Source of the DNA: Gammaproteobacteria bacterium | GTDB lineage: Bacteria; Pseudomonadota; Gammaproteobacteria; Enterobacterales; Permianibacteraceae | Reading direction: 5' to 3' | Length of the DNA stretch: 64,000 nt | Assembly: GCA_016182845.1 (NCBI GenBank) | Contig: JACPFT010000003.1 | Coordinates: forward strand, 1-64,000 | Shown: piece by piece, positions 4,206 to 54,205 of the stretch | Layout: the number at the start of each line of letters is the position of its first letter | How positions within the stretch are numbered: the stretch's first letter is position 1 | The notes under the pieces: generated by a model | What the model was told of the DNA's origin: nothing | Database searches by the model: none | What the model saw: the letters and a program-made list of their open reading frames with translations, nothing else | Position numbers and translations under genes: made by a program

Positions 4206-6788
<2,583 letters not shown>

Positions 6789-40634: not shown

Positions 40635-41159
40635 ATGAGCCTGCATGCCGATTTCACGGCCTTGGTGCGCACCTACGCGGGCGACCTCTTCCGCTACGCG
40701 CATTGGCTGTGCCGCGATTCGCACCGAGCCGAGGATTTGGTGCAAGAGACGCTGCTGCGCTCCTGGCGGGCCTTCCCCAAGCTGCGCGAAACGGGATCGG
40801 CCAAGGCCTGGTTGCTCACTACGCTACGCCGCGAGCTGTTCCGGGAGGGCGCGCCGAGCCAAGACTTGAGCCTGGACGATCCCGAACTGGACTTCGGGGC
40901 CGAAGCGGCCCTGCAACACATCCACGAAATGGACAGCGTGCTCGATGCCGAGCGTTGTCTCGGCCGGCTCCCCGAAACCTATCGCGAGGTGCTGATGCTG
41001 CAACTGCATTTCGGCTATTCCACGCTGGAAATCGCCGCTGTGCTCGGCATCACCGAGCCGGCCGTTGCCAACCGCCTATTGCGTGCCCGGCGCGCCCTCT
41101 CCGCCCTGGCCGAGCCGCAGGATGGCACGGTGGTGCCCTTCCGCAGGAGGTCCCTATGA
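40635..41159 (+). CDS. ECF RNA polymerase sigma factor, copy 1
   Basis: A 174-residue ECF sigma factor. Region 2 contains FRYAHWLCRDSHRAEDLVQE and region 4 LHFGYSTLEIAAVLGITEPA with the -35-binding helix-turn-helix. It overlaps its anti-sigma gene by ATGA. A close paralogue (43266-43832) shares HADFTALV, HRAEDLVQETLLRSW and GSAKAWLLTTLRRE. By context and the shared upstream motif it probably controls the bufferin operon of the same island, as ECF factors do for related bufferin loci. Confidence 0.9.
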   Translation: MSLHADFTALVRTYAGDLFRYAHWLCRDSHRAEDLVQETLLRSWRAFPKLRETGSAKAWLLTTLRRELFREGAPSQDLSLDDPELDFGAEAALQHIHEMDSVLDAERCLGRLPETYREVLMLQLHFGYSTLEIAAVLGITEPAVANRLLRARRALSALAEPQDGTVVPFRRRSL

Positions 41160-41854
41160 ACTGTCCGTCTTTTCAGCGTCTGGCGCTGATCGATCCGCAG
41201 CACCTGCCGCCCGAGGCCCTGAACCATGCCGAGCGTTGTCCGCGCTGTCAGGCGGCCCTCAAATCCCTACGCCACAACGATGCGCTGCTGCGCGCAGCCC
41301 TTGTCGCCACGAAGAGCGACGGGCTACAGGCGCGCGTTCTCGCCGACGCCGGCGTCGACCGCAGCCGCCGGCATTTCGGTCTGGGATTGGCGGCGGGCAT
41401 CGGCTTTGCCGTCTTGGGCGGCGCGCAGTGGCTGCGCCTAAGCGCGCAAGCGGGTTCGGATCAGCTCTGGGTCGATGCGCTCAGCCAGCACTTCGAAGAC
41501 GATCCCGAACATCTGCGGCCGGCCGACCCCGAGGCGGGTAACCGCTTGGCACGCGCCCTGGCCGATCTGGGCGGCGAACTCCAGGTGACGCTCCCCCCCG
41601 TGGTACGCGCCGGGTTGTGCAAACTCAAGCACCGGACGGCGGCACACCTGGTGTTCGAATTGCCCGACGAGCGCGTCGTGGTTTTTCTGCTGCCCCATGA
41701 GCGGATCGATGCGCACTTCAAAGTCGCTGGCTGGTATGGCGAGTTGCAACCGGTTTCAGGCGGTACTGTCGGCGTCCTGGCCCGCCACGCACAGAGTCTG
41801 CGGCAGTTCCACGCTGCGTTGGGCGATGGCCTGCGCTTTCTTCCGGCGGTCTGA
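41156..41854 (+). CDS. DUF3379-type membrane anti-sigma factor, copy 1
   Basis: A 232-residue protein with an N-terminal zinc-finger-like anti-sigma motif H-x3-C-x2-C (HAERCPRC), one membrane helix (GLGLAAGIGFAVLGGA) and a periplasmic DUF3379-like domain (HFEDDPEHLRP, AHLVFELPDERVVVFLL). It should hold the ECF factor inactive until a periplasmic signal, perhaps copper or thiol stress, relieves it. The copy at 43829 has exactly the same length. Confidence 0.85.
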   Translation: MNCPSFQRLALIDPQHLPPEALNHAERCPRCQAALKSLRHNDALLRAALVATKSDGLQARVLADAGVDRSRRHFGLGLAAGIGFAVLGGAQWLRLSAQAGSDQLWVDALSQHFEDDPEHLRPADPEAGNRLARALADLGGELQVTLPPVVRAGLCKLKHRTAAHLVFELPDERVVVFLLPHERIDAHFKVAGWYGELQPVSGGTVGVLARHAQSLRQFHAALGDGLRFLPAV

Positions 41855-41923
41855 TCTCCCCCGATCGGCCGCCCTACCTCTCCGCCACCCTCGTGGCGGT
41901 TCACAGTCCATAGGAGTGTTCAC

Positions 41924-42304
41924 ATGAAAATCGCGCACTGGCTCTTCGCTGCCGGCCTGGGTCTCATCGGCAGTCTCGCCCATGCCCTGGAAGTCGCCCC
42001 CTATTCGGCGAGTGCCCTCGCCGCCGCGCAGAAGGACGGCAAGCCCGTCGCCCTGCACTTTCACGCCGGCTGGTGCGCGACCTGCCGTGCTCAGGAGAGG
42101 GTCCTGAACGAGCTGAAAGCCGACAAGTCCCTGGACCTCACCGTGTTCGTGGCCGATTACGACAAGGAAGAGGCCCTGAAGCAGGCACACCAAGTGCGCA
42201 AGCAATCGACCCTGATCGTCTACCACGGCGACAAGGAAACCGCGCGCCTGATGGGCGAGACCGATGCGGCCAAGCTCGAAACCGCCCTCCGTACCGCCCT
42301 GTAA
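41924..42304 (+). CDS. Periplasmic thioredoxin-like protein
   Basis: A 126-residue protein with a Sec signal (LFAAGLGLIGSLAHA) and a thioredoxin fold whose active site is WCATC (C-x2-C). It lies between the two ECF/anti-sigma pairs and just before a CcdA-like transporter that could keep it reduced. Likely jobs are keeping cysteines of the bufferin or of c-type cytochromes reduced. A CCGCCAC/GTGGCGG hairpin precedes it at 41881-41899. Confidence 0.88.
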   Translation: MKIAHWLFAAGLGLIGSLAHALEVAPYSASALAAAQKDGKPVALHFHAGWCATCRAQERVLNELKADKSLDLTVFVADYDKEEALKQAHQVRKQSTLIVYHGDKETARLMGETDAAKLETALRTAL

Positions 42305-42311
42305 TTCGCAC

Positions 42312-42334
42312 TGGCATGTCGCTTCGCGACATGC
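42312..42334 (+). terminator. Perfect hairpin after the thioredoxin-like gene
   Basis: GGCATGTCGC, TTC loop and GCGACATGCC form a perfect 10-bp stem 8 bases after the stop codon. No T run follows, so it may be an mRNA-stabilising or attenuating stem rather than an intrinsic terminator. Confidence 0.5.
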
Positions 42335-42433
42335 CCCCTCTCCCGGCGCTTCGCGCCACCCTCCCTCCCGAAGGGGGAGGAGAACAAGGCAGTCGTCGCT
42401 AGGCGACTTTCACCGTAATTCGAGGAGCGCGCC

Positions 42434-43168
42434 ATGGACACGACCTTTCCCCTCGCCCAGCTCGGGCTCAGTTTGACCGCCGGCAGCCTGACGACGCTGT
42501 CGCCCTGTGTCTTGCCGCTGCTACCCCTGGTGGTGGGCGGCGCCATGCAGGCGAACCGCTGGGCGCCGGTGGCCATGGGCCTGGGCATGTCGCTGTCCTT
42601 CGCGCTGCTCGGCGCCGTGGTCGGCCTGTTCGGCCCGGCGCTGGGCATCGACGGCGACGGCCTGCGCGTCGTCGGTTCCTGGCTATTGATCGCCTTGGCC
42701 TTGGTGCTCCTGGTGCCGGCCCTGAGCCGGCGCTTCAGCACCCTGATGACACCCATCGCCAGTCTGGCCGGCGACGCCACGGCACGCCTGCGCGGCAATT
42801 CCCTGAGCGGCGCCTTCGCCCTGGGCGCCCTGCTCGGCATGGTCTGGAGTCCCTGTTCGGGCCCCCTGCTCGCCGCCGCGCTGACCCTGGTGGCAAGCGA
42901 GGGCCAGGCCGGACAAGGCGCCTTGCTGCTCGGTCTGTTCGGCCTGGGCGCAGCCCTGCCCCTGATCGCCGCCGGCTATGCGTCGCGACGGGGTTTCGGT
43001 CGGCTGCGCGACTGGGCGCTGAGCCGCGCCGAGCGCGTCAAGCGGGTCTTCGGTGTCGTCATGGGCGGTTTGGGGCTAGCCATCCTCACCGGGGGCGACA
43101 AATGGCTGGAAGCTCGAATCCTTGAACTGCTGCCCGATTCCTGGGTCCTGCTGAGCGTGGCGGTTTGA
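42434..43168 (+). CDS. CcdA/DsbD-like membrane thiol-disulfide transporter
   Basis: A 244-residue protein with six or more membrane helices. Each half of the pseudo-symmetric fold carries a conserved cysteine: SPCVLPLLPLVVGG and WSPCSGPLLAAAL. The family moves reducing power from cytoplasmic thioredoxin to periplasmic acceptors. It probably reduces the thioredoxin-like protein encoded just upstream. A GAGGAG site precedes the ATG. Confidence 0.88.
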   Translation: MDTTFPLAQLGLSLTAGSLTTLSPCVLPLLPLVVGGAMQANRWAPVAMGLGMSLSFALLGAVVGLFGPALGIDGDGLRVVGSWLLIALALVLLVPALSRRFSTLMTPIASLAGDATARLRGNSLSGAFALGALLGMVWSPCSGPLLAAALTLVASEGQAGQGALLLGLFGLGAALPLIAAGYASRRGFGRLRDWALSRAERVKRVFGVVMGGLGLAILTGGDKWLEARILELLPDSWVLLSVAV

Positions 43169-43265
43169 GTCCAACCGGCAAGCCTGTACCCAAACACACA
43201 AAGAGTTGCTTTCATCTTTTCGACACAACTGAACAGGCTCGTCAAGTGCGTCGGGAGGCGCTAAG

Positions 43266-43832
43266 ATGCCAGCCCTTCGTGACAGCCAAGGCACTGAGCG
43301 CATGAGCCCGCACGCCGATTTCACCGCCCTGGTGGCCGCCTACGCGGACGATCTCTACCGGTATGCCCGCTTCCTCTGCCGTGATCCCCATCGCGCCGAA
43401 GATCTGGTGCAGGAGACCCTGCTGCGCTCGTGGAGCGGCTTTGGTTCATTGCGCAAACTGGGTTCGGCCAAAGCCTGGCTCTTGACCACCTTGCGCCGTG
43501 AGCACTTCCGCGATGGCAAGGCGGCTCAGGAACTCAGCCTGGACGATCCCGAGCATGGCCTCACGGATGCCGAGTTGACGCAGGAAGCCCATGATCTGGA
43601 CGGCGTCCTGGATGCCGAGCGCCGACTGGACGCCCTGCCGGCGGCCTACCGGGAAGTCTTGATCCTCCAGCTGCATTTCGGTTATTCCACGCTCGAAATC
43701 GCCACGCTCCTGGGGATCACCGACGCCGCCGTCGCCAATCGCTTGCTGCGCGCGCGCCGTGCCCTGGCGAGCGCGGCGGAATCAGAAACCCCGGCTTGCA
43801 CGGTTGTCCCCTTCCAGCGGAGAGCGCGATGA
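43266..43832 (+). CDS. ECF RNA polymerase sigma factor, copy 2
   Basis: A 188-residue ECF factor, paralogous to the one at 40635. Region 2 has YRYARFLCRDPHRAEDLVQE and region 4 LHFGYSTLEIATLLGITDAA. The start at 43266 is decided by GGGAGG seven bases upstream; an internal ATG at 43302 aligns with copy 1. I do not find the bipartite motif of copy 1 upstream, so the two factors may have different targets. Confidence 0.88.
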   Translation: MPALRDSQGTERMSPHADFTALVAAYADDLYRYARFLCRDPHRAEDLVQETLLRSWSGFGSLRKLGSAKAWLLTTLRREHFRDGKAAQELSLDDPEHGLTDAELTQEAHDLDGVLDAERRLDALPAAYREVLILQLHFGYSTLEIATLLGITDAAVANRLLRARRALASAAESETPACTVVPFQRRAR

Positions 43833-44527
43833 ATTGCCAAACCGTTCGCCACGCGGCCCTCGTCGATCCGGCGCGCCTGCCCGCCGAGGCGCAAGCCCAT
43901 GTGGGAGGCTGCACCTCCTGCCAGGCCTTCCTGGGTTCGCTGCATCATAACGACGCCCTGCTGCGCAAGGCCTTCGCGACGACCCAGAGCGCGTGCCTAG
44001 CGGAGCGCGTGCTCGCCGAGAAAGGCTTTGACCGCAGCCGACGCCGCTTCGGCTTGGGCCTAGCCGCCAGCATCGCGCTTGGCGGCCTGGGTGCCGCGTC
44101 CTGGCTGCGTCAAAAGCCGGCTCCGCTGTCGGCACAGGACTGGGCGAAGCTCATGACCGAGCATTTCGAGGCCGATCCGGAGCACTTGCGCCCCGGCGAT
44201 CCCGAGGCCCCCGCTCGCTTTGAGCGCGCCCTGGCCGATCTGGGCGGGACACGCAGGGCCGACCTGCCGCCGCTGTTGCGCGCCGATTTATGCCACTTGC
44301 AGGGCCACAACGCCGCGCATCTGGTGTTTGAAGTGGATACTCGGCGCGCCGTGGTGTTTCTGGTGGGACAGGATGTCGGTCCTGCCCATTTCGCCGTGGG
44401 CGACTGGCAGGGCGAGTTGCGCCATGTGGTCGGCGGTACGGTGGGCATCATCGCCCCGGATCTCGCGACCGTGCGCAAGCTGGGGGATGTCTTGGCGGGA
44501 AATCTCGCCTTGTCCGCCGTGGTATAG
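43829..44527 (+). CDS. DUF3379-type membrane anti-sigma factor, copy 2
   Basis: A 232-residue protein, the same length as copy 1, with HVGGCTSC (H-x3-C-x2-C), a membrane helix (GLGLAASIALGGLGAAS) and the periplasmic block HFEADPEHLRPGDPEA. It overlaps its sigma gene by ATGA, as copy 1 does. The pair clearly arose by duplication of the sigma/anti-sigma unit. Confidence 0.85.
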   Translation: MNCQTVRHAALVDPARLPAEAQAHVGGCTSCQAFLGSLHHNDALLRKAFATTQSACLAERVLAEKGFDRSRRRFGLGLAASIALGGLGAASWLRQKPAPLSAQDWAKLMTEHFEADPEHLRPGDPEAPARFERALADLGGTRRADLPPLLRADLCHLQGHNAAHLVFEVDTRRAVVFLVGQDVGPAHFAVGDWQGELRHVVGGTVGIIAPDLATVRKLGDVLAGNLALSAVV

Positions 44528-44542: not shown

Positions 44543-45526
44543 TCAGCCGCCGGTCATGCTCATAAAGCGCAGGATTTGCACGTCGCTGGCGACGTCGAAA
44601 TGATGCCGCTCCGGTTTCAGCTCCATCGCGGCCAAAATGGCCGATTTCAATGCCTCCGTGTCACCGGGATGGGCGCGCACGACGCGCCGTAGGTCCAGGG
44701 AGTGTTCATTGCCGAGGCAGAGCAGTAGACGGCCCTCGGCCGTCAGGCGCACCCGGTTGCAGCTGCCGCAGAAATTGTGGCTGAGCGGCGAGATGAAGCC
44801 GATGCGCGAATCGCTTCCCGCCAGGCGGAAATAGCGCGATGGCCCGCCGGTGGATTCGGTGCTCGGAATCAAGGCATGCCGTGACTCGATATGCCGGCGG
44901 ATCTCCTCGCTGGACATATGGGTTCTGGCGCGATCGTGCTCGCTGATCCGCCCTAAGGGCATTTCCTCGATGAAGGAAATATCCAGGCCCCCTGCGGCCG
45001 CGTACTCGACGAGATCCAGGATCTCGTGGTCATTGCGTCCCTTGAGCACGACGCAATTGAGCTTGATGCGCTCGAAACCCTGCGCCCGTGCCGACTCGAT
45101 TCCCTTGAGAACGGTATCCAGATCGCCGACGCGGGTCAGCTCGCGAAAGCGCTCCGCATCCAGCGTGTCGATGGAGACATTGAGACGGCGCACGCCAGCG
45201 GATTTCAGGGAGCCTGCCATCTTGTGCAATTGCGAACCGTTGGTCGTCAGCACCAGTTCCTTCAATCCTGGCATCGCGCCCAGCTCCTCGCACAGCCAGA
45301 GCACATTGTGGCGAACCAGGGGTTCGCCGCCGGTGAGGCGGATCTTGCTGACGCCCAGTTCGACGAAGGCACGCGCGACGGTAGCGATTTCTTCCAGGGT
45401 CAGCAGCTGTGCACGGGGCAGGAACTGCATGTCTTCGCTCATGCAATACACGCAACGGAAGTCGCAGCGATCGGTGACCGAGATGCGCAGATAATTCACC
45501 ACGCGCCCGAAGCGGTCTTTTAGCAT
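44543..45526 (-). CDS. moaA: GTP 3',8-cyclase MoaA (Moco biosynthesis)
   Basis: A 327-residue radical SAM enzyme. The N-terminal cluster site is CDFRCVYC (C-x3-C-x2-C), the C-terminal cluster site is [10 protein letters not shown] with a later Cys (LLLCLG), and the required C-terminal Gly-Gly is present (MTGG). It starts Moco synthesis by rearranging GTP. It is convergent with the second anti-sigma gene. With moaE and the remnants of moeA and mobA it suggests the island arrived with its own Moco cassette for the AioA-like enzyme. Confidence 0.95.
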
Positions 45527-45584
45527 GTCCGGGATTCCATTCGTCGTATTCGCTCGTGCACGAAGGCGAAAACTTCCGTTACCA

Positions 45585-45621
45585 CGCCCCAAAGCCCGGG
45601 GAGAGTTCAGGCTTTGGGGCG
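45585..45621. terminator. Stem-loop between the porin and moaA
   Basis: CGCCCCAAAGCC and its complement (12-bp stem) with a 13-base loop lie just after the porin stop on the minus strand. There is no T run, so it may be weak or act in RNA stability. Confidence 0.55.
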
Positions 45622-45635
45622 CAGGCGTCGGTCAA

Positions 45636-46877
45636 TCAGAACGTGAACTGCATCTGCACGCCGGCAATGGTTTCCTTGCCGTAGTCGACGGAGTTCACGC
45701 CCTGGGTGCTCTTACCTTCGTCGTAGACGAAGATTTCCGGACGGATGGTCAGGCCGCGTGCCATCCACGGCGTTTCGATGGGCCAGCTCAGGCCGAGCAT
45801 GGTGCTGTCGTGATCGGCACGCTGTGCCGCCGTCTTCGCGCCATCGGCTTCGCTCTCCATCGCGCCGTAAACCAGGTGCAGCACGCTGGAGGTGTTCTTG
45901 GTGGTGAAGCGCCAGCCGAGATCGACCCAGTAGCTCTGGTTGTCGGTGTCGCCGATTTCGGTGTTCGCGCCATCGACGAAGAGACGAGCGCCGCTGCCCA
46001 GAGCCGCCGCGCTATTGGCCAGGGAATAGCCGGCATTGCGCCAGTTGCTGCCGATGTTGTATTCCGCAGAGGCCTCGAAGGGACCGACGCCGGTCTGCAC
46101 ACCCAGGGACGCCGCCCAGGTGGTGACCTCGTCGTCGCTGCCGGATTTCACGCCGTTGTAGCCCTGCTTCTGGTAGGAGAAGCCGGGGAAAATGCGCACG
46201 TCGTAATAGTTGAAGGCGGCGCCCACATCGAGGCGCGGCAGGGAGGATTCGCGCGCCGGCTTGGTGGCGAGTTCGGCGGGCAGGTCGAGCTCCTTGCCCT
46301 GGTTCGGGTCGAACAGCGCGACGGCGATGGCGCCGTGCTGATCCGGGAAGGTGTAGGTCGCGCGCAGCTGCGGATTGCGGCCCGCGTCCAGATCGCCATA
46401 ACCCTTGCCGGTGTTGTGGCTGCCGCCGACCGCGGCCGGGGTGTTGGAGGCGCTGGCCGGCGCGTTGTTGCCGATCAGCTGGCTGGGAAACAGCGGCGAG
46501 AACGGCGAGGACGACTGGCCGGCGAGGATCTGCCAACGATCGTTGATCTTGTAGGTGCCATAGGCCTGGCGGGTGTTGACGCCAGTCGCGCCACTGGCGC
46601 CGCCTATGCCCATTTCGATGTACATGCCGAGGTTGTCTTCATTGCTCCAGGAAGCACGCAGACGCGTGATATTGGGCAATTCCAGCTTGCTGCCGTGGTA
46701 GTCGTCGGCATCGGGGGCGGCGCCGTTGACGAGGCCGCCGCTGTTGCTCGCATCATCGCGGTTGATGCTGTACAGGTCGGTGAAGATGATACCCCCGAAG
46801 GAGGTCTTGGCCAGGGCATCGGGCGCGGCCATCGCGGATAACACGGCGGCGGCGAGGGTCACTGCGTACTTCGACAT
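45636..46877 (-). CDS. Outer-membrane porin-like beta-barrel protein
   Basis: A 413-residue protein with a Sec signal (YAVTLAAAVLSAMAAPDALA), alternating aromatic beta-strand pattern throughout and the C-terminal Phe (GVQMQFTF) needed for Bam-dependent insertion. It resembles phosphate/anion-type or generic proteobacterial porins. It ends the cytochrome-Rieske-AioA transcript, so it may bring that enzyme's substrate, likely an oxyanion, into the periplasm; this is inferred from position. Confidence 0.8.
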   Translation of the reverse strand: MSKYAVTLAAAVLSAMAAPDALAKTSFGGIIFTDLYSINRDDASNSGGLVNGAAPDADDYHGSKLELPNITRLRASWSNEDNLGMYIEMGIGGASGATGVNTRQAYGTYKINDRWQILAGQSSSPFSPLFPSQLIGNNAPASASNTPAAVGGSHNTGKGYGDLDAGRNPQLRATYTFPDQHGAIAVALFDPNQGKELDLPAELATKPARESSLPRLDVGAAFNYYDVRIFPGFSYQKQGYNGVKSGSDDEVTTWAASLGVQTGVGPFEASAEYNIGSNWRNAGYSLANSAAALGSGARLFVDGANTEIGDTDNQSYWVDLGWRFTTKNTSSVLHLVYGAMESEADGAKTAAQRADHDSTMLGLSWPIETPWMARGLTIRPEIFVYDEGKSTQGVNSVDYGKETIAGVQMQFTF

Positions 46878-47013: not shown

Positions 47014-47445
47014 TTAGTTCGGTTCCAAGGTCTGCAGCAGCGGATCCTCCTGAACCTTCGAGTCCTTCTTCTTGGCCGGCTTTTCCTCAACCGGTTTTTC
47101 GCTAGGCGTTTCCCGGACCGATGCCTTTAGCTCCGGCTTGGCACTGGAAGCCTTGGTTTCGGGAGCCGCATCCGGCATCGCCGAGGGCTTTTCTGCAGGC
47201 GCCGGGGCGGATTTTGCCGGCTTCGGCTCAGCCGCCGACTTGAGCAGCGGATCCTCTTGCACGCGGCTGTCCACACCTTGCGGCAAATCGGTCGGCAAGG
47301 CCCGTTCCGAAACCTGGTCGGTCTTGGGCTTGACGGTCTTGAGGATCGGGTCCTCCTGGACGGGCTCGTTGCGCGGCTCGGCCGCCGAGGCCATCCCCGA
47401 GACCAGGGTGGCGAACATGGACAAGAGCAGGGATTTTTTCATCAT
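47014..47445 (-). CDS. Small secreted protein with three VQEDPLL repeats
   Basis: A 143-residue protein not recognised as a named family. Residues 1-22 are a Sec signal peptide. The mature part is Pro/Ala/Lys/Glu-rich and probably disordered. Three copies of a short motif stand out: VQEDPILK at 29-36, VQEDPLLK at 62-69 and VQEDPLLQ at 131-138, the last near the C-terminus. Two similar motifs occur in the late insertion of the AioA-like subunit encoded immediately upstream. AGGAGA precedes the start. It may be a partner, tether or assembly factor of that enzyme. Confidence 0.75.
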   Translation of the reverse strand: MMKKSLLLSMFATLVSGMASAAEPRNEPVQEDPILKTVKPKTDQVSERALPTDLPQGVDSRVQEDPLLKSAAEPKPAKSAPAPAEKPSAMPDAAPETKASSAKPELKASVRETPSEKPVEEKPAKKKDSKVQEDPLLQTLEPN

Positions 47446-47470
47446 GACGATTCTCCTGATGCCCCCGGCA

Positions 47471-50329
47471 TCAAACGATGTGGCGCGGAGCAAGGCTCAT
47501 GCGGGTGAAGTCGTTCTTGTATTCCGACTCGCCGAGTTTCTTCAGCCGGCCGACGCCGAGCTTGAATCGGTAGCGTTGGCTGACCGGGTCGAGCACGCGC
47601 GGCGCCAGGGAATTACCCGGATTCTCGGTGTCGAGGAAATAGGTAAAGGCCACGCCGGGACGGATGGCATCGGTCACTAGCGCCACGGCGCGGAAATCGC
47701 CATGGATATGCTTGATATGACCGGCCTTCTGCAAGGCGCTGAAGGTCATGGGCTCGACATCGTCCCAACCGACGCGGATCGCCTCGGCGGCAGTGGGCTC
47801 GCGATCCAGGGGGCGGATCTCAAGCGACTCGGCTTTACGTACCGTGGCAAGCAGCGTGTCGTCCTGGACGGCATCATCGACCTGATCGGCGGAGAGGTTC
47901 TCGCCAACACTCGCCGGGCCGCCGAAGGTGTCGAACAGCGGATCGCTCTGCACTGACTTGTCACCATCTTCGACGCGCACGACACCCCGGGCTTCCTCGG
48001 AGTATTCCATGAAGCCGCCGGTCTGCACTGGCACCCGATCCGACCACACTAGGAGCATGTCGCCGCTCTCGATGCCGCGCGCCTTGGCATCGTCCGGATG
48101 CAGTTCGATGAAGTTGTGCGGCCAACGCTGCTTCTGGTATTCCCGGCGCTTCTTGTCGTCGAAGCCGGACTGCCAGAACTCGTTGATGCGGCCCGTCGTC
48201 ACCCAGAGCTCGTCGTCCTGGGGCTTGATGTGCTCGTAAAAGTCGGCGAACAGCTCCCAGGGCGTCTTGAGCAGATTGGCCTTGCCGGAGGTCGTGCCGA
48301 AGAAGCGCAGGATATTGCCGGTGAACGGCGTCGCGCCCATGGGCGTGCCCAGCTTGAGCGTCGAATCCTGCAGGCGCTGCGTGCCCACCAGCTTGCCGTC
48401 TTCCCAGCGCACCGGCGCCTGGATACCGGTCGTGCCGAATTCCCGCAGCATCTGATGGCCGGACTTGCCGTGGGTCTTGGCGAATTCGACGAGCTGCAAA
48501 TAGCTGGTCACGCCGCTACGCCCGTGCCAGGCGGCCTCTTCGAAGATCTCGTTGCTGTCTTTCCAGTCGAAGCCGGAATAGCCCATGCGCTTGCCGATCT
48601 GGGCGGCGATCCACCAGTCGGCCTTGGCTTCGCCCGGTGCATCGTAAAACTTGGAATACAGGCGGATGCGCCGTTCGCCGTTGGCACGCGTCAGGTCCTG
48701 TTCGCCCCAACCGGAGGCCGGCAGGACGATGTCGGCGAACTCGGTGCCAACGGGCGCCACCGGGTAGATGTCCTGATCCACGAGCACCATGCCGCCGCTG
48801 TCCACGCGCTGCTTGAGCACCGCGAGCAGATGCGCCGGATCCAAGCTGGTCGGCTGATGCGGATTGCCGCGCGTGAGTTTCTGCAGGCTCTCGCGCAAGC
48901 CGGACGAGGCGGTCATGGCCTGCACCCAGGTCGTGCCGACCACATAGGTAAAGCGGGCCTTGCCCATTTCCATCCAGCGGTCGAGGTCCACGGGCTTCTT
49001 GAGCCGGCCGGGGAACTTTTCGGCGACCTTTTCCCAAGGATAATTGCCGCCTTCCATCATGCCGCGCTGGTGACCGCCCAGGCGCGAGATGACCTGGCCG
49101 GGCCGATTGCCGGCGCCGCAAATCAAGCCCAGGGAGGCCAGAGAGGCGGTGTTCAGGTAATTATTCGACCAGTAATTGCCCTTCTCGAAATTGATCGAGG
49201 TCTTGGGGCGGGTGCCGTCAGCCTTGGGCTTGGCCATCCACTCCGCCGCCAGGCGAATTTTCTCGGCCGGCACGCCGGTGACGCGCACGGCCTCGTCGAG
49301 CTTGGCATAGGGAACCGACAGCAGCCAGCGCTTGTAATCATCGAAGCCATCGGCCTGGAAGGTTTCGGTGTCGCTCTCGGCGCGATTGTTGATGTGGTCG
49401 CGGAGGAAATCCTTGTCTTCCCAACCGTTCTCGACGATGACGCGGGCGATGGCCAGTTGCAGGATCGTGTCCGTGCCGGGAATGACCTGCAGCAGCATGC
49501 CGCCGTTCTTCTCGGCAAAGGCGACGCCCGTGGTCTTGCGCGGCAGGACGTAGATCACCTTCATGCCATTGCGGATGCCCTTCATGATCCACTCGTTGAA
49601 CACGATGGTCTTGGTCTCGAAGGGGTCGGTTCCGGACAGGAACAAGGTGTCGGCGATGGACATGTCCTCGTAGCTGCTGGAAAACGGCTCGATGCCGGCA
49701 TCGGTCATGCCGGGGGTATCGGAGCCGGCGCCGGTCGGCTGGTCATGAACGGCGAAGGCCGCCGTGCGCACATCGCGCAAGGCCAGCTTGGTCAGGGCAT
49801 AGGTGTTCTCGAAATACTGATAGGAGAACATCTTCATGGCCCAGGCATCTTCGCCATGCTTGTCGATGACATAGCGGGAGATGTTGGCCACCAGATCCAG
49901 GGCCACATCCCAGGACACGCGTTGCAATTTGCCGTCGACGCGCACCATGGGATAGAGCAAGCGGTCGGAAGTCAGCGAGTCGGGGTTGTAGCATTTCTTG
50001 GCAATGGTGCCGCCGCGTATGCTGTGATCGCCGCCGACGTTGACGACCTGGATTTCGCTATCCGGGATCACGGCGATATGGTGAGGCTTGCCATTGACCG
50101 AAACGACATTGTGCTGGTTCGGGCTGATCCACTTGCCGCTCATCATGGCAACCGGATAATCCGCCTTGAGGGCATTTTCGCCCGCCGTCGGCCCACCCTC
50201 TTTACCTACCGGCCAACGGTAGACCTTGTAGCCGCAAGCGACGACGCAGTATTCGCACGCGGTCGTGAAGACCTCGGCGTCCTTGGGCGGCAAGGGAACG
50301 TGATCATTGTGCTCTTCGTACTTTTCCAT
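47471..50329 (-). CDS. AioA/IdrA-family molybdopterin oxidoreductase, catalytic subunit
   Basis: A 952-residue molybdo-bis-MGD enzyme, closest to arsenite oxidase AioA and iodate reductase IdrA. The cluster site is Cys25-x2-Cys28-x3-Cys32, and there is a fourth cysteine at 113 (AKKCYNP), where AioA has a Ser nearby, so a 4Fe-4S cluster is possible. Of the four AioA pocket residues, His195, Arg416 and His420 (RLGGHQ) appear kept, but Glu203 is Ser and the nearby Arg197 is Gln. A segment of about 100 residues near 760-860 is extra compared with AioA and contains VQSDPLFDTF (793) and VQDDTLLATV (821). No signal of its own; export would be with the Tat-signal Rieske partner. The substrate is not known. 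Confidence 0.85.
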   Translation of the reverse strand: MEKYEEHNDHVPLPPKDAEVFTTACEYCVVACGYKVYRWPVGKEGGPTAGENALKADYPVAMMSGKWISPNQHNVVSVNGKPHHIAVIPDSEIQVVNVGGDHSIRGGTIAKKCYNPDSLTSDRLLYPMVRVDGKLQRVSWDVALDLVANISRYVIDKHGEDAWAMKMFSYQYFENTYALTKLALRDVRTAAFAVHDQPTGAGSDTPGMTDAGIEPFSSSYEDMSIADTLFLSGTDPFETKTIVFNEWIMKGIRNGMKVIYVLPRKTTGVAFAEKNGGMLLQVIPGTDTILQLAIARVIVENGWEDKDFLRDHINNRAESDTETFQADGFDDYKRWLLSVPYAKLDEAVRVTGVPAEKIRLAAEWMAKPKADGTRPKTSINFEKGNYWSNNYLNTASLASLGLICGAGNRPGQVISRLGGHQRGMMEGGNYPWEKVAEKFPGRLKKPVDLDRWMEMGKARFTYVVGTTWVQAMTASSGLRESLQKLTRGNPHQPTSLDPAHLLAVLKQRVDSGGMVLVDQDIYPVAPVGTEFADIVLPASGWGEQDLTRANGERRIRLYSKFYDAPGEAKADWWIAAQIGKRMGYSGFDWKDSNEIFEEAAWHGRSGVTSYLQLVEFAKTHGKSGHQMLREFGTTGIQAPVRWEDGKLVGTQRLQDSTLKLGTPMGATPFTGNILRFFGTTSGKANLLKTPWELFADFYEHIKPQDDELWVTTGRINEFWQSGFDDKKRREYQKQRWPHNFIELHPDDAKARGIESGDMLLVWSDRVPVQTGGFMEYSEEARGVVRVEDGDKSVQSDPLFDTFGGPASVGENLSADQVDDAVQDDTLLATVRKAESLEIRPLDREPTAAEAIRVGWDDVEPMTFSALQKAGHIKHIHGDFRAVALVTDAIRPGVAFTYFLDTENPGNSLAPRVLDPVSQRYRFKLGVGRLKKLGESEYKNDFTRMSLAPRHIV

Positions 50330-50341
50330 GAGTTCCTTCCC

Positions 50342-50869
50342 TCAACCGAGATTGGAGTGGCGGCCGTAAACCAGGCCCATGATGCCGACGGCATAGATGT
50401 CGTCGCCTTCGACTTCCAGCATGACCTGCGGCAAGGATTCGGTGGCATGACCGGCGATGACCATGCCATGCCTGGTCAAGTCGAAGGTCGTCAAATGCAT
50501 GGGACAGGGGCCGATCGCCTTGTATTCCCCTTTATAGGCGCCATGCAGGGGACCGCCCATGTGCGTGCAGAAATGGCTGAAGGCCACCACGTCCTTGGCC
50601 GGGCCGACGCCGCCGCCGCCTTCCGTGCCCAGTTTCACCAGCAGGTTCGACGACAGCATGTCGTCGAAGGGGTAGCGAAACTCGATAGGCTCGTCCGTCT
50701 TGAGTTGGCTCAGCTTGGCGATGGCCTTGCGCTCGAAGCGCTTCCCCTTCAAGGAAACCGCCCCGACAAGGCCAGGGATGGAGGTCATGATCAGGGTTGT
50801 CGCCCCCGCCAGTAGCATCTGGCGGCGCGACAGGCAAAAATGTTCGGAAGTGGACGCCGATTCGCTCAT
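50342..50869 (-). CDS. Rieske iron-sulfur subunit (AioB/IdrB type) with Tat signal
   Basis: A 175-residue protein. The twin-arginine signal is SRRQMLLAGATTL. The 2Fe-2S Rieske site is FCTHMGGPLHG (C-x-H) and GPCPMHLTTFDL (C-x2-H), with the AioB-like end VYGRHSNL. It carries electrons between the molybdenum subunit and the cytochrome and pulls the folded complex through Tat. Thirteen bases separate it from the catalytic gene. AAGGA eight bases upstream supports the ATG at 50869. The 300 bases between it and the cytochrome gene hold nothing recognisable. Confidence 0.9.
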   Translation of the reverse strand: MSESASTSEHFCLSRRQMLLAGATTLIMTSIPGLVGAVSLKGKRFERKAIAKLSQLKTDEPIEFRYPFDDMLSSNLLVKLGTEGGGGVGPAKDVVAFSHFCTHMGGPLHGAYKGEYKAIGPCPMHLTTFDLTRHGMVIAGHATESLPQVMLEVEGDDIYAVGIMGLVYGRHSNLG

Positions 50870-51169
50870 TCGCATATTCCTTTTGACTCGATAAATTCGT
50901 TGGCTCGGTAGGCTCAAATTGCTGCAAATTGCTGTAAGCCGCCCGTCGCGAGTTGCCAGCGAGCAAACCTCATTCCCGCGACCAAGACTCACCCTTACCC
51001 ATGCCCATTGCACCAATGGAGAAGGATACGATTCACTCATGCATTACCACGGCCGCTGTGGGTCGATGCCCGAGCCGAGTTTCAGGATCTCGAGGGTGCA
51101 CGAACCCATGGAGCAGGATCTCCCCTGCCCCCATCCGTCTGTCTTGGGCGTTGTGGACTCGCGGCGGCG

Positions 51170-51508
51170 TTACTGGCTCTTGGAAACCATGTAGTCGACG
51201 GCAGCCTTAACCTCATCGTCCGTGCAACTCATGCAAGTGCCCTTGGGGGGCATGACATTAATGCCCTTCAGCGCATTGGCCTTGAGTACGTCCGCCCCCT
51301 TGGCGGCACGGGCTTGCCAGGCGGCTTTGTCGCCGAATTTCGGCGCGCCGGCGGCACCGGAGGAATGGCACATGGCGCAAGTGCTGTCGTATACCTGCTG
51401 GCCGGATTTCGGCTTGGCGGCATCGGCCAGGCTGACGGGGGAGAGAGCGAGCGCGCCGATCATTCCGGCGATGACCATTGCGCATTTCAGCGTTTTTTTG
51501 GCTTGCAT
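51170..51508 (-). CDS. Periplasmic c5-type cytochrome c
   Basis: A 112-residue monoheme cytochrome with a Sec signal ([20 protein letters not shown] onward), heme site CAMCH, axial Met in INVMPPKGT and a CMSC disulfide typical of cytochrome c5. It leads the transcript that continues to the Rieske and AioA-like genes and would exchange electrons with the Rieske subunit. An ATG at 51520 is an alternative start. Confidence 0.88.
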
Positions 51509-51585
51509 GTTGGCGTCCATTTCATTGGTAGCTTTTTCCGGCGGCGAGTGAAGCACGAGATCTGCGTTCGTTACAAGGGGGGGCA

Positions 51586-51668
51586 ACAAATATTCACAAA
51601 CCCTCAAATATTTGTGACCAACCTCTCAAATTGCAACTTCCCCTCCCCCATCGCAGAAAAAATATTTG
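51586..51668. promoter_or_regulatory. AT-rich AAATATTTG repeats in the divergent region
   Basis: ACAAATATT (51586-51594) and AATATTTGT (51607-51615) form a 9-bp dyad, and AATATTTG occurs again near 51661-51668. The block lies between the divergent cytochrome and bufferin genes and differs sharply in composition from its surroundings. It could be an operator or promoter region for the cytochrome-AioA transcript. Confidence 0.45.
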
Positions 51669-51760: not shown

Positions 51761-52039
51761 ATGAGCGACGCTCGCAACCTGATCAAGCAAACCGCCCTGG
51801 CGATGGCCTGTGTCGCCGCCGTGGCCACCGCCCTTCCCGCTCAAGCGGCCAAGCCCGGCATGGAAAAATGCGCCGGCATCGCCAAGGCTGGTAAAAACGA
51901 TTGCGGCACCAGCAAGCATTCCTGCGCTGGCCAGGCGGCTCAGGACGGCAATGCCGAAGAATGGGTTTATGTGCCGACCGGCGCCTGCGAAAAGATCGTC
52001 GGCGGCAGCTTGAAAGCCATGGACAAAGCCAAGAGCTAA
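51761..52039 (+). CDS. bufA: Bufferin precursor peptide (DUF2282, BufA-type)
   Basis: A 92-residue precursor of the DUF2282 family. A cleavable Sec signal covers about residues 7-30. The core has four cysteines at 37, 48, 55 and 76 in the family pattern (EKCAGI, NDCGTS, HSCAGQ, GACEKI). Known bufferins are RiPPs in which cysteines are converted to thiooxazoles by a DUF692 enzyme, and the exported product binds copper. The enzyme genes follow directly. The start has GGAG about eight bases upstream. Confidence 0.88.
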
Positions 52040-52044
52040 TCTCG

Positions 52045-52890
52045 GTGAGCACTAGCTTCCCTGGTTCTCTGCGCAAACCCACGCCGCTACTAGCTGGCGT
52101 GGGTCTGCGCTTTGCGCATTTAGCGGATTTTGAGGCGCAGAGACCGGATGTCGGTCTGCTCGAACTGCACACGGAAAATCTCTTTGGCTTATCGCCGAGT
52201 GTGCACCGGCGCCTGGAAGCATTGCGCGGCGATTATGCATTCTCCTTGCATGGGGTCGGCCTTTCCCTGGGTTCCGCGCAGGGCATGGATCCGCTGCATC
52301 TGGCCAAAATCGCGCGACAAATTCGGCGCTACAAGCCGAGCCTGGTTTCCGAGCACCTGGCCTGGAACCGCGCCGACGGTATCAGCGTGCCCGACTTGCT
52401 GCCGCTGCCCATGACCAAAGAAGCCTTGCAGACAGTTTCGCGCAATGTGCAACAGGTTCAAGAAGCCATTGGCACCGTGATTGCCGTGGAAAATATTTCC
52501 GCCTATGCCCGTTGGACGCAGGCCGAGATGAGCGAAGCCAGCTTTTTAAGCGAGCTGAGCCTACGCACCGGCTGCAAGCTGCTGGTCGATCTCAATAATC
52601 TGCATGTCAACCAACTCAATCACGGCGATGCGCCGCTGGATTTTTTGGAGACTATTCCACACGCCAGCGTGGTGGAGTTTCACCTGGCCGGTCCCAGCGA
52701 AATAGCCGGCGCATGGATCGATACTCACGCCACGCCGGTACCCGAGCCGGTCTGGGCACTGTACGAGACGGCCTTGCGGCGATTCGGCCCACTACCCACC
52801 ATCGTCGAATGGGACCAGGACTTGCCGGCGCTGGAAGAATTGGTGGCGCACGCTTCCCGAGCGCAGCGCCTGCTGAAGCAGGCCGCGTAA
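52045..52890 (+). CDS. bufB: DUF692 multinuclear non-heme iron oxidase (MNIO), BufB-type
   Basis: A 281-residue TIM-barrel enzyme of the DUF692/MNIO family. Conserved metal-site blocks are visible: LLELHTEN, SLHGVGLSLG, VSEHLAWN, VAVENIS, LVDLNNLHVN, EFHLAGP, DTHATPVPEPVW and VEWDQD. It uses two or three iron ions and oxygen to modify precursor cysteines. The start is GTG at 52045, five bases after the bufA stop. It overlaps bufC by one base. Confidence 0.9.
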   Translation: MSTSFPGSLRKPTPLLAGVGLRFAHLADFEAQRPDVGLLELHTENLFGLSPSVHRRLEALRGDYAFSLHGVGLSLGSAQGMDPLHLAKIARQIRRYKPSLVSEHLAWNRADGISVPDLLPLPMTKEALQTVSRNVQQVQEAIGTVIAVENISAYARWTQAEMSEASFLSELSLRTGCKLLVDLNNLHVNQLNHGDAPLDFLETIPHASVVEFHLAGPSEIAGAWIDTHATPVPEPVWALYETALRRFGPLPTIVEWDQDLPALEELVAHASRAQRLLKQAA

Positions 52891-53720
52891 TGATGCCCAC
52901 GCTCGCGGAATGCCAACGGGCTTGGATCGGCGCCTTGCGCCAACCCGAGGATGCGATACGTTACGCGACGGCAGTCGCAGGTTGGCAAGGAGGCCAGCGT
53001 AGCGGCGCTCAGGCGCTGGCGGTCTATGTCAACAACTCCCGAGCGACGCTAATCCAGGCCTTATCGCTGTCCTATCCGCTCAGCCTGCGCCATGCCGGCA
53101 CGTCCCTGTTTCATCGCGCCGCCGTCCGCTGCTTGCGCGACTATCCGCCTCGCTCCGGGGATCTTGGCGAATACGGCGCGGATTTTCCCGCTGTGCTTCG
53201 AGACACGGCGGCAGAGATGCACAGAGACGATGCGGCTTGGCTCGCTGATCTCGCGCGCTGCGAGTGGCTGCTGGATCAACTGCCGAGAAAGACCGCCCAT
53301 CCCGCGTGGACTCGTGCCGACAGCACGGCATTGGCGCCGGAACATTGGCTGGGGCTGCGTCTTTCACTGGCGCCGCAGGCGGCGTGCTTCATCGGCGACG
53401 AGCCGGCATACACCGAACTCGCCGAGGCATTTATGGCGCAGGCGTCCGATGCGACCGGTTTTCCGCTGTGCGAGTATTTCTCGGCGGATGGTGAATGCGA
53501 GGGCTTGTTGCTGGTGGCACAGACAGGCTCGGTGCAGCTCCTGGGACTGCGGGCGGACGAGTGTGCCTGGGTTGCTCGGCTGCAAGACTCGCCATCCATG
53601 ATGGCGGCGACGGAAGCGACCCTGACCCGCTGGCCCGGGTTTGACTTACTGTCGCTGTTATCGCGCCTGTTCGACGCCGGCGCCTTGCTGCGAATCACTG
53701 ACGATGGAGAAATGGAGTGA
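52890..53720 (+). CDS. bufC: DUF2063 partner protein (BufC-type)
   Basis: A 276-residue protein. The N-terminal DUF2063 domain (LAVYVNNSRATLIQALSLSYP, DYPPRSGDLGEYG) serves as precursor-recognition partner of the MNIO enzyme in characterised systems. The C-terminal half is less conserved. The start codon overlaps the bufB stop (TAATG), so the two are translated together and probably form a heterodimer. Confidence 0.88.
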   Translation: MMPTLAECQRAWIGALRQPEDAIRYATAVAGWQGGQRSGAQALAVYVNNSRATLIQALSLSYPLSLRHAGTSLFHRAAVRCLRDYPPRSGDLGEYGADFPAVLRDTAAEMHRDDAAWLADLARCEWLLDQLPRKTAHPAWTRADSTALAPEHWLGLRLSLAPQAACFIGDEPAYTELAEAFMAQASDATGFPLCEYFSADGECEGLLLVAQTGSVQLLGLRADECAWVARLQDSPSMMAATEATLTRWPGFDLLSLLSRLFDAGALLRITDDGEME

Positions 53721-54205
53721 TGGCAATATTGAACGCCCCGGTCAGACGCCTGCATGGATGGATGATGCCTCTGGACGGCTGGATGCAGGCGATATTTCTG
53801 TTGGCCTTGCGCCTGATCCTGGCGGATATCTTCTTACGGGCCGGCTTACTCAAACTGCAGGCCTGGGACAGCACCCTGATGTTGTTCGAGTACGAGTACG
53901 CCGTGCCCTGGCTTTCCCCCACCCTCGCCGCATGGCTGGGCACTGCGGGGGAGATAGTTTTTCCTTCCTTATTAGTATTGGGCTTTGGCGGCCGATTCGC
54001 GGCCCTGGGCCTATTGGCGCTAAATCTGGTGGCCGCGATCAGTTACCCCGACATCAGCGCGGCGGGCATCAAGGATCATGTGCTGTGGGGCTGGTTCTGC
54101 GCCATGCTCGCCGTGTTTGGCTGCGGCCGATTTTCGTTCGACGGCTGGATGGTGGCATCCTGGCGGGGGCATGCGGTATCGCCCCAGGCCCAGGCGGCAT
54201 ACTGA
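53720..54205 (+). CDS. bufD: DoxX family membrane protein (BufD-type)
   Basis: A 161-residue protein with four membrane helices and DoxX signatures (LILADIFLRAGLLKLQAWD; GEIVFPSLLVLGFGGR). DoxX-like proteins are usual last genes of bufferin operons; their role, perhaps quinone- or oxygen-linked redox, is unclear. The ATG at 53720 overlaps the bufC stop; a GTG one codon upstream is an alternative. A terminator follows. Confidence 0.85.
   Translation: MAILNAPVRRLHGWMMPLDGWMQAIFLLALRLILADIFLRAGLLKLQAWDSTLMLFEYEYAVPWLSPTLAAWLGTAGEIVFPSLLVLGFGGRFAALGLLALNLVAAISYPDISAAGIKDHVLWGWFCAMLAVFGCGRFSFDGWMVASWRGHAVSPQAQAAY

Follow-up and report, generated by a model that had tools for sequence, protein, structure and literature searches.

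Two described enzyme systems lie closest to the one considered here, the arsenite oxidase AioAB and the iodate reductase Idr of Denitromonas iodatirespirans and Pseudomonas sp. SCT, in which IdrAB is accompanied by IdrP1/P2. One published study (PMC8692401) reports idrABP1P2 synteny in every IdrA-clade neighborhood that it examined and AioA unaccompanied by peroxidases of this type. The locus described in this work lies on contig JACPFT010000003.1 of a gammaproteobacterium of the Permianibacteraceae, in a stretch of 64,000 nucleotides (positions 1 to 64,000, the window), and encodes an IdrA/AioA-like catalytic subunit with an extra segment, a small secreted protein, and an outer-membrane porin. 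The segment and the small protein share a short, repeated motif. We consider it quite probable that the enzyme and the small protein share a docking function, and we put at roughly 0.45 the probability that the motif is a disordered, multivalent docking element through which both attach to a common partner, the co-encoded porin being the most likely one. A search of open-licence PubMed Central articles, in which an absence is weak evidence, found no described case of a motif shared in this way by an enzyme and a small protein. Loci that have the extra segment are called carriers below; twelve were found, the window included.

A motif shared by the catalytic subunit and a small secreted protein

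The features on which the argument turns are the following.

47471..50329, minus strand: IdrA/AioA-like molybdopterin catalytic subunit, 952 residues, recognized by Pfam and NCBIfam, with the AioA fold in its model and on the IdrA side of the tree
47753..48034, minus strand: extra segment of the catalytic subunit, residues 766 to 859, of which 787 to 851 are predicted to be disordered
47924..47953, minus strand: enzyme motif VQSDPLFDTF, residues 793 to 802, D796 invariant in a 10-row alignment
47840..47869, minus strand: enzyme motif VQDDTLLATV, residues 821 to 830, D824 invariant in the same alignment
47014..47445, minus strand: small secreted low-complexity protein, 143 residues, three motif copies, with an equivalent protein encoded at this position in 12/12 carriers
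47342..47361, minus strand: small-protein motif copy 1, VQEDPIL
47243..47262, minus strand: small-protein motif copy 2, VQEDPLL
47036..47055, minus strand: small-protein motif copy 3, VQEDPLL
45636..46877, minus strand: outer-membrane porin, the proposed partner, with a predicted porin fold and no Pfam family

The small open reading frame (ORF) starts with an ATG at 47445 and has a Sec-type start, MMKKSLLLSMFATLVSGMASAAE. Its translation bears out the first-pass annotation of this DNA, which had read three copies of VQEDP[IL]L[KQ] in a 143-residue secreted protein; they are VQEDPILK, VQEDPLLK, and VQEDPLLQ, the third near the C terminus. The two enzyme motifs that it had placed at residues 793 and 821 of the enzyme encoded upstream are also there. 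Of the segment around them, which it had put at about 100 residues, the presence stands and the length does not: from VPVQTGG to PMTF the window enzyme has 94 residues and the other 11 carriers have 97 to 123, against 14 to 19 in 71 relatives, a net insertion of about 80 residues. AioA chains align with the window enzyme only up to about residue 770, that is, before the segment.

Across the carriers the pattern is looser and can be written approximately as [IVL]xx[PE]DPLLxx[LV]; VQ is peculiar to the lineage of the source genome. When 29 small-protein copies and 28 insertion copies from ten carriers were aligned by hand on the aspartate, their common pattern was approximately [IVL]xx[P/E/D]D[P/x][LI][L/M]xx[L/V]; being anchored on D, this alignment proves nothing by its D counts, and one small-protein copy, in L015, lacks that residue. 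The enzyme loops hold two to three copies and the small proteins three. In sequence-only alignments of 10 rows, D32, in the first motif, is the sole invariant column of the small proteins, and within enzyme residues 773 to 859 only G782, D796, D824, and W855 are invariant. The last motif lies at or near the C terminus in all 11 carriers with a complete small gene. That gene sits between the enzyme and porin genes, its longest reading frame overlapping the enzyme stop in six carriers (L019 to L023 and L112); in L019 it has a TTG start. No known family was recognized in the small protein by Pfam, NCBIfam, and other family scans, which gave stray matches with E values of 0.057 to 0.76. On the Thiomargarita contig (L015, about 4460 to 4600) a direct repeat can be seen by eye at the start of the small gene, such that the ribosome-binding and start region occurs twice.

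Carriers, relatives, and co-inheritance

A single scan of a collection of 84,980 species identified 375 relatives; the 80 best (L015 to L094) were retained. The segment is present in nine of these 80 (L015 to L023) and not in the other 71. Six of the nine are gammaproteobacterial, including Thiomargarita, Alteromonadaceae, and Algicola, and three are campylobacterotal (Sulfurimonas, Helicobacteraceae), so that the carriers span two phyla; eight of the nine are labelled metagenome-assembled. Two further carriers, L112 and L113, from the families of L021 and L018, were detected solely with the porin profile; their loci turned out to have the insertion and the small protein as well. The list of twelve is incomplete, as L112 and L113, with their different cluster peptide, escaped the two peptide patterns of the species scan, and 295 relatives lie outside the retained set.

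All locus counts cover at most 10 kb on each side of the enzyme gene. Among ORFs of fewer than 260 residues starting at most 400 bases from the enzyme end, a small protein with at least two motif copies was found directly downstream in 12/12 carriers and in 0/71 relatives without the segment; two of the latter (L050, L080) have no qualifying ORF, and three (L041, L042, L048) have an ORF with a single chance match. The insertion was not seen without the small protein in any of the loci examined (12 carriers, 71 others), an outcome in favor of the first-pass annotation, which had named widespread separate occurrence as a refutation. The porin is in the locus of 10 of the 12 carriers and of none of the 71 relatives. 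A Rieske homologue is found in 12/12 carriers and in 70/71 relatives. IdrP1/P2 homologues lie beside the genes in 0/12 carriers, with L019 and L113 having too little upstream DNA to tell, against 69/71 relatives, the exceptions being L066, on a 3-kb contig, and L024, with 770 bases upstream. None was found in the 64-kb window, the part of that genome covered by the search. The carrier clade thus breaks the published idrABP1P2 pattern.

The tree was built from sequences without the segment, to keep the segment from determining the grouping, by a quick method with support from the Shimodaira-Hasegawa-like approximate likelihood ratio test only. The twelve carriers form one group (support 99), with the window as its deepest branch, and sit with 72 IdrA-like rows. 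Judging from the sequences, the carriers look like a single origin followed by descent and transfer, and the co-occurrence counts are not independent events. The carriers also have one added residue, T199, in the active-site loop HDQPTGxGxDTPG (49733 to 49735 of the window, minus strand), present in 12/12 carriers and in 0/71 relatives. T199 may mark a different substrate, and because of it iodate is not to be assumed as the substrate.

Comparison of the motif with chance

For a shuffle test, a motif profile was derived exclusively from the small proteins of lineages other than the one under test and scored against 3,000 composition-preserving shuffles of each insertion, which sets a floor of 0.0003. 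The window insertion reached P = 0.0033 with its best two scoring windows and P = 0.0117 with its best single one. In the two-window test, eight of the nine other carriers tested were at the floor, and the ninth, L018, gave P = 0.057. A Fisher combination over 7 lineages gives a P of about 1.6e-14; the shuffle floor limits this value, and its calculation takes related lineages to be independent. The exact pattern VQEDP[LI][LI] has three sites in the 3.8-Mb host genome, all in the small-protein gene; with one mismatch a fourth site appears elsewhere, and a backward control pattern has three.

A second profile, made from ten small proteins and used at a cut-off of 10 bits, was run over the 4,664 six-frame ORFs of at least 60 residues from the first Met in 83 loci, spurious frames included. 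At least two matches were found in 16 of these ORFs, namely, 11 of the 12 small proteins and five of the 12 insertion-bearing enzymes, and in no others; most of the 11 small proteins were the profile's training set, and the enzymes were not trained on. Ten small proteins score three matches, the truncated one of L017 scores two, and the TTG-start protein of L019 is absent from the list. The enzymes of L017 and L019 score three each and those of L016, L022, and L023 two each. On the shuffles and the ORF background, chance or low-complexity similarity, which the first-pass annotation had named as a refutation of its reading, was rejected, L018 alone being not significant. The short loop of 18 of the 71 relatives holds a single look-alike of the QKDTI type, such as QKDTIIGV, probably a coincidence.

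Predicted structures of the enzyme and the porin

An AlphaFold2 model of the enzyme, made from 57 sequences, has a mean predicted local distance difference test score (pLDDT) of 82 and a predicted template modeling score (pTM) of 0.85. Its closest structure is arsenite oxidase 8ch9_G, with a Z score of 43.3, a root mean square deviation (rmsd) of 2.3, 762 aligned residues, and 32% identity. The extra segment exits the enzyme core between strands 757 to 769 and 872 to 885 and is modeled at a pLDDT of about 34 without ordered contact to the core, residues 787 to 851 being below 50. Low-confidence model helices at 797 to 802 and 825 to 834 coincide with the two enzyme motifs.

The downstream barrel gave a model with a pLDDT of 65 and a pTM of 0.66 from 8 sequences. 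Its fold, at a pLDDT of only 65, is that of the 16-stranded porin class: the best match is DcaP 6eus_A (Foldseek E 6.8e-15; Z 24.8, rmsd 3.3, 304 aligned), followed by chitoporin, OmpK, OmpF, and other 16-stranded porins. By eye, the DSSP string has about 16 strands and a long loop after strand 5. No sequence relatives of the porin were found in Pfam, PDB sequences, or 72,556 plasmid records. Porin-profile scans were made of overlapping sets of 10, 228, 345, 42, 54, 298, 294, and 369 genomes, and the full-length strong matches all fell within carrier operons; the scans of 298, 294, and 369 genomes returned known carriers only. In the ten carrier genomes the profile has one match each in nine, eight of them full length and in the operon and the ninth, of L023, a fragment outside it. 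Weak matches in L115 (E 8.7e-6) and L114 (E 6.7e-5) were dropped, as these stretches have no such enzyme.

With strands counted by eye and the near-copy L021 excluded, mean conservation of the porin is 0.75 in periplasmic turns, 0.67 in strands, and 0.37 in outer loops. The best-conserved 12-mer, PIETPWMARGLT (0.88), starts in an 11-residue periplasmic turn, and another periplasmic turn, NEDN, is equally conserved for its length (0.86). The longer turn is a candidate docking site:

45753..45785, minus strand: porin residues 365 to 375, WPIETPWMARG, an 11-residue turn, periplasmic if the strand count is right

Trimeric assembly, giving three equivalent sites, is usual among porins of this fold. 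The window porin may by analogy with its fold relatives be trimeric; one published account gives DcaP as a homotrimeric 16-stranded barrel (PMC12338516).

Other genes of the operon and its surroundings

Three more genes belong to the row, which is transcribed from the minus strand in the order cytochrome c, Rieske, catalytic subunit, small protein, beta-barrel, moaA.

51170..51607, minus strand: c-type cytochrome gene, upstream of the Rieske gene
50342..50875, minus strand: Rieske small subunit (IdrB/AioB-like) with a twin-arginine translocation (Tat)-type leader, SRRQMLLAG
44543..45592, minus strand: moaA (molybdenum cofactor synthesis)

The twin-arginine leader is visible in 9 of 10 aligned Rieske rows, L019 being the exception; the L019 Rieske ORF (353 to 1216) also has a C-terminal extension of more than 100 residues that is absent in the other nine. 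Divergent from the enzyme operon, at 51761 to 54205 on the plus strand, are consecutive genes for a DUF2282 peptide, an MNIO enzyme (MbnB/TglH/ChrH family), a DUF2063 protein, and a DoxX protein, a row that resembles a bufferin-type metal-binding peptide operon. On the other side (40635 to 44527, plus strand), Pfam identifies a sigma-70-family gene at 40635, and inspection by eye suggests a second gene of this sort at 43266. The genes next in line after these two resemble each other in having a Cys-pair start, and genes for thioredoxin-like and DsbD-like proteins lie between the sigma-type genes.

Discussion

Two co-encoded exported proteins with disordered, repeated-motif segments, inherited together with one porin, argue for docking on a shared partner, and the porin is favored as that partner because it is the only other operon gene gained together with the insertion and the small protein. 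The first-pass annotation had offered binding to a common partner or mimicry, with control of assembly, tethering, or electron transfer as the outcome. Binding to a common partner is now the best-supported reading, with tethering, assembly, and electron transfer as candidate roles; among the partners that it listed, the co-occurrence data suggest the porin.

The motif, composed of a hydrophobic residue, an acidic or proline N-cap (PD or ED), and then PLLxxL/V, would lie in disordered polypeptide in both proteins and would probably form a small helix when bound, the two proteins having a common periplasmic partner. Three copies in each small protein would fit three equal sites of a porin trimer. 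The enzyme loop might keep the IdrA/IdrB-like enzyme close against the inner opening of its own porin, and the small protein might bridge, preload, or compete for the same porin sites. An oxyanion substrate could then be brought in, or a reactive product let out, at the outer membrane, and the absence of IdrP1/P2 from the cluster could be due to substrate entry or product release taking place there. The complete picture, a periplasmic respiratory molybdoenzyme tied to a dedicated trimeric porin by disordered motifs, with the small protein as adaptor or competitor and with venting or channeling of reactive oxyanion chemistry in place of the peroxidases, is offered tentatively and is doubtful as a whole. 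What the data establish is the shared motif, the co-inheritance, the predictions of disorder and of a porin fold, and the lack of IdrP genes beside the operon; binding, helix formation upon it, the porin as partner, the fit to a trimer, the substrate, and the purpose are inferences from these.

It is rather unlikely, in our estimate, that both proteins instead dock through the motif on a different partner (Rieske subunit, c-type cytochrome, or a periplasmic protein encoded elsewhere), the small protein being a scaffold for electron transfer or assembly and the porin no more than a supplier of substrate. A Rieske gene does accompany all twelve carriers, a cytochrome c gene lies upstream in the window, and haem-motif genes are nearby in L015 and L017; yet the Rieske gene is as common among the relatives that lack insertion and small protein, which leaves their gain unexplained, and no CxxCH ORF was seen beside the operon in L016, L018, or L020 to L023. 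The position of the small gene between enzyme and porin, with a frame overlapping the enzyme stop in several carriers, and the C-terminal placement of the last motif in 11 of them would suit a dedicated porin assembly or trimerization factor that the enzyme loop mimics, thereby coupling porin maturation to enzyme export; the family scans recognized no known family in the small protein, and we hold this to be quite unlikely.

Shared ancestry might also leave a motif with no present role, if the insertion was acquired as a fragment of the small gene, or if both are acidic, proline-containing low-complexity sequence. Both segments are indeed low in complexity and repeat-like, and single look-alikes occur in short loops of 18 of the 71 relatives; against this, which we judge improbable, the aspartates of the motifs are conserved between linkers that can scarcely be aligned, and composition-preserving shuffles fall short of the score in nine of the ten carriers tested. 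A regulatory arrangement in cis, with the enzyme's own surface as the binding site of the loop motifs and the small protein as their competitor, would be in keeping with the motif's presence in both proteins, yet the AlphaFold2 model leaves the insertion undocked (weak evidence, from 57 sequences at a pLDDT of about 34), and this reading is very improbable.

Docking on the porin has its own difficulties. The predicted folds are those of single chains, and the barrel model, with a pLDDT of 65 from 8 sequences, is middling. Given one origin, every part co-occurs with every other, and an unlinked partner would account for the data almost equally well. In L023 the porin profile finds no more than a fragment of 84 residues, located on a different contig, and the L017 genome has no porin match, its contig ending inside the small gene. 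Conserved turns of such length may be frequent among porins of this kind. As for the motif, the window insertion has two clear copies, not three; the L018 insertion fails to beat its shuffles; seven of the 12 insertion enzymes, the window's included, have fewer than two profile matches at 10 bits; and model helices 814 to 822 and 847 to 850 sit off the motifs. Resemblance between motifs of the same genome is only weak (P = 0.035, hand-aligned) and partly due to VQ in both window proteins.

Comparison with known systems

Enzyme loop, motif protein, and porin make up a rare but coherent module, with hosts that include Thiomargarita and Sulfurimonas-like bacteria. Neither the label arsenate reductase (azurin) nor iodate reductase by descent may be right for its enzyme. 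If the motifs bind the porin, they would couple a periplasmic enzyme to its own pore by linear motifs, and if the porin does serve as a tether, this would be a new way to organize periplasmic respiration. A clade without IdrP1/P2 beside its genes is also a handle on the purpose of IdrP1/P2.

The catalytic and Rieske subunits of the carriers are homologous to those of Idr and fall on the IdrA side; in contrast to Idr, the carriers have no IdrP1/P2 beside the genes and have the extra loop, the small motif protein, the porin, and T199. The enzyme is accordingly filed, on sequence grounds, as an IdrA-like variant and not as Idr, because the peroxidases sought beside its genes were not found there. 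With AioAB the carrier enzyme shares its fold, and NCBIfam TIGR02693 assigns that name, the NCBI model's label being arsenate reductase (azurin) large subunit; however, the carriers stand apart from the three AioA sequences with full support (100) in the quick tree. Membership of the catalytic subunit in AioA was rejected on that placement, which used three AioA rows. The barrel shares a predicted fold with DcaP and other 16-stranded porins; DcaP is its best fold match only, with no sequence match to the PDB copy. A precedent for the proposed docking is colicin E9, whose disordered epitopes OBS1 and OBS2 bind to two subunits of OmpF, with OBS1 entering its subunit from the periplasmic side (PMC8561637). 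If the porin is indeed the partner, the likeness would be one of mechanism, a disordered segment placing short epitopes on the subunits of a trimeric porin; colicin E9 is a bacteriocin entering from outside, whereas the carrier proteins are the cell's own and periplasmic.

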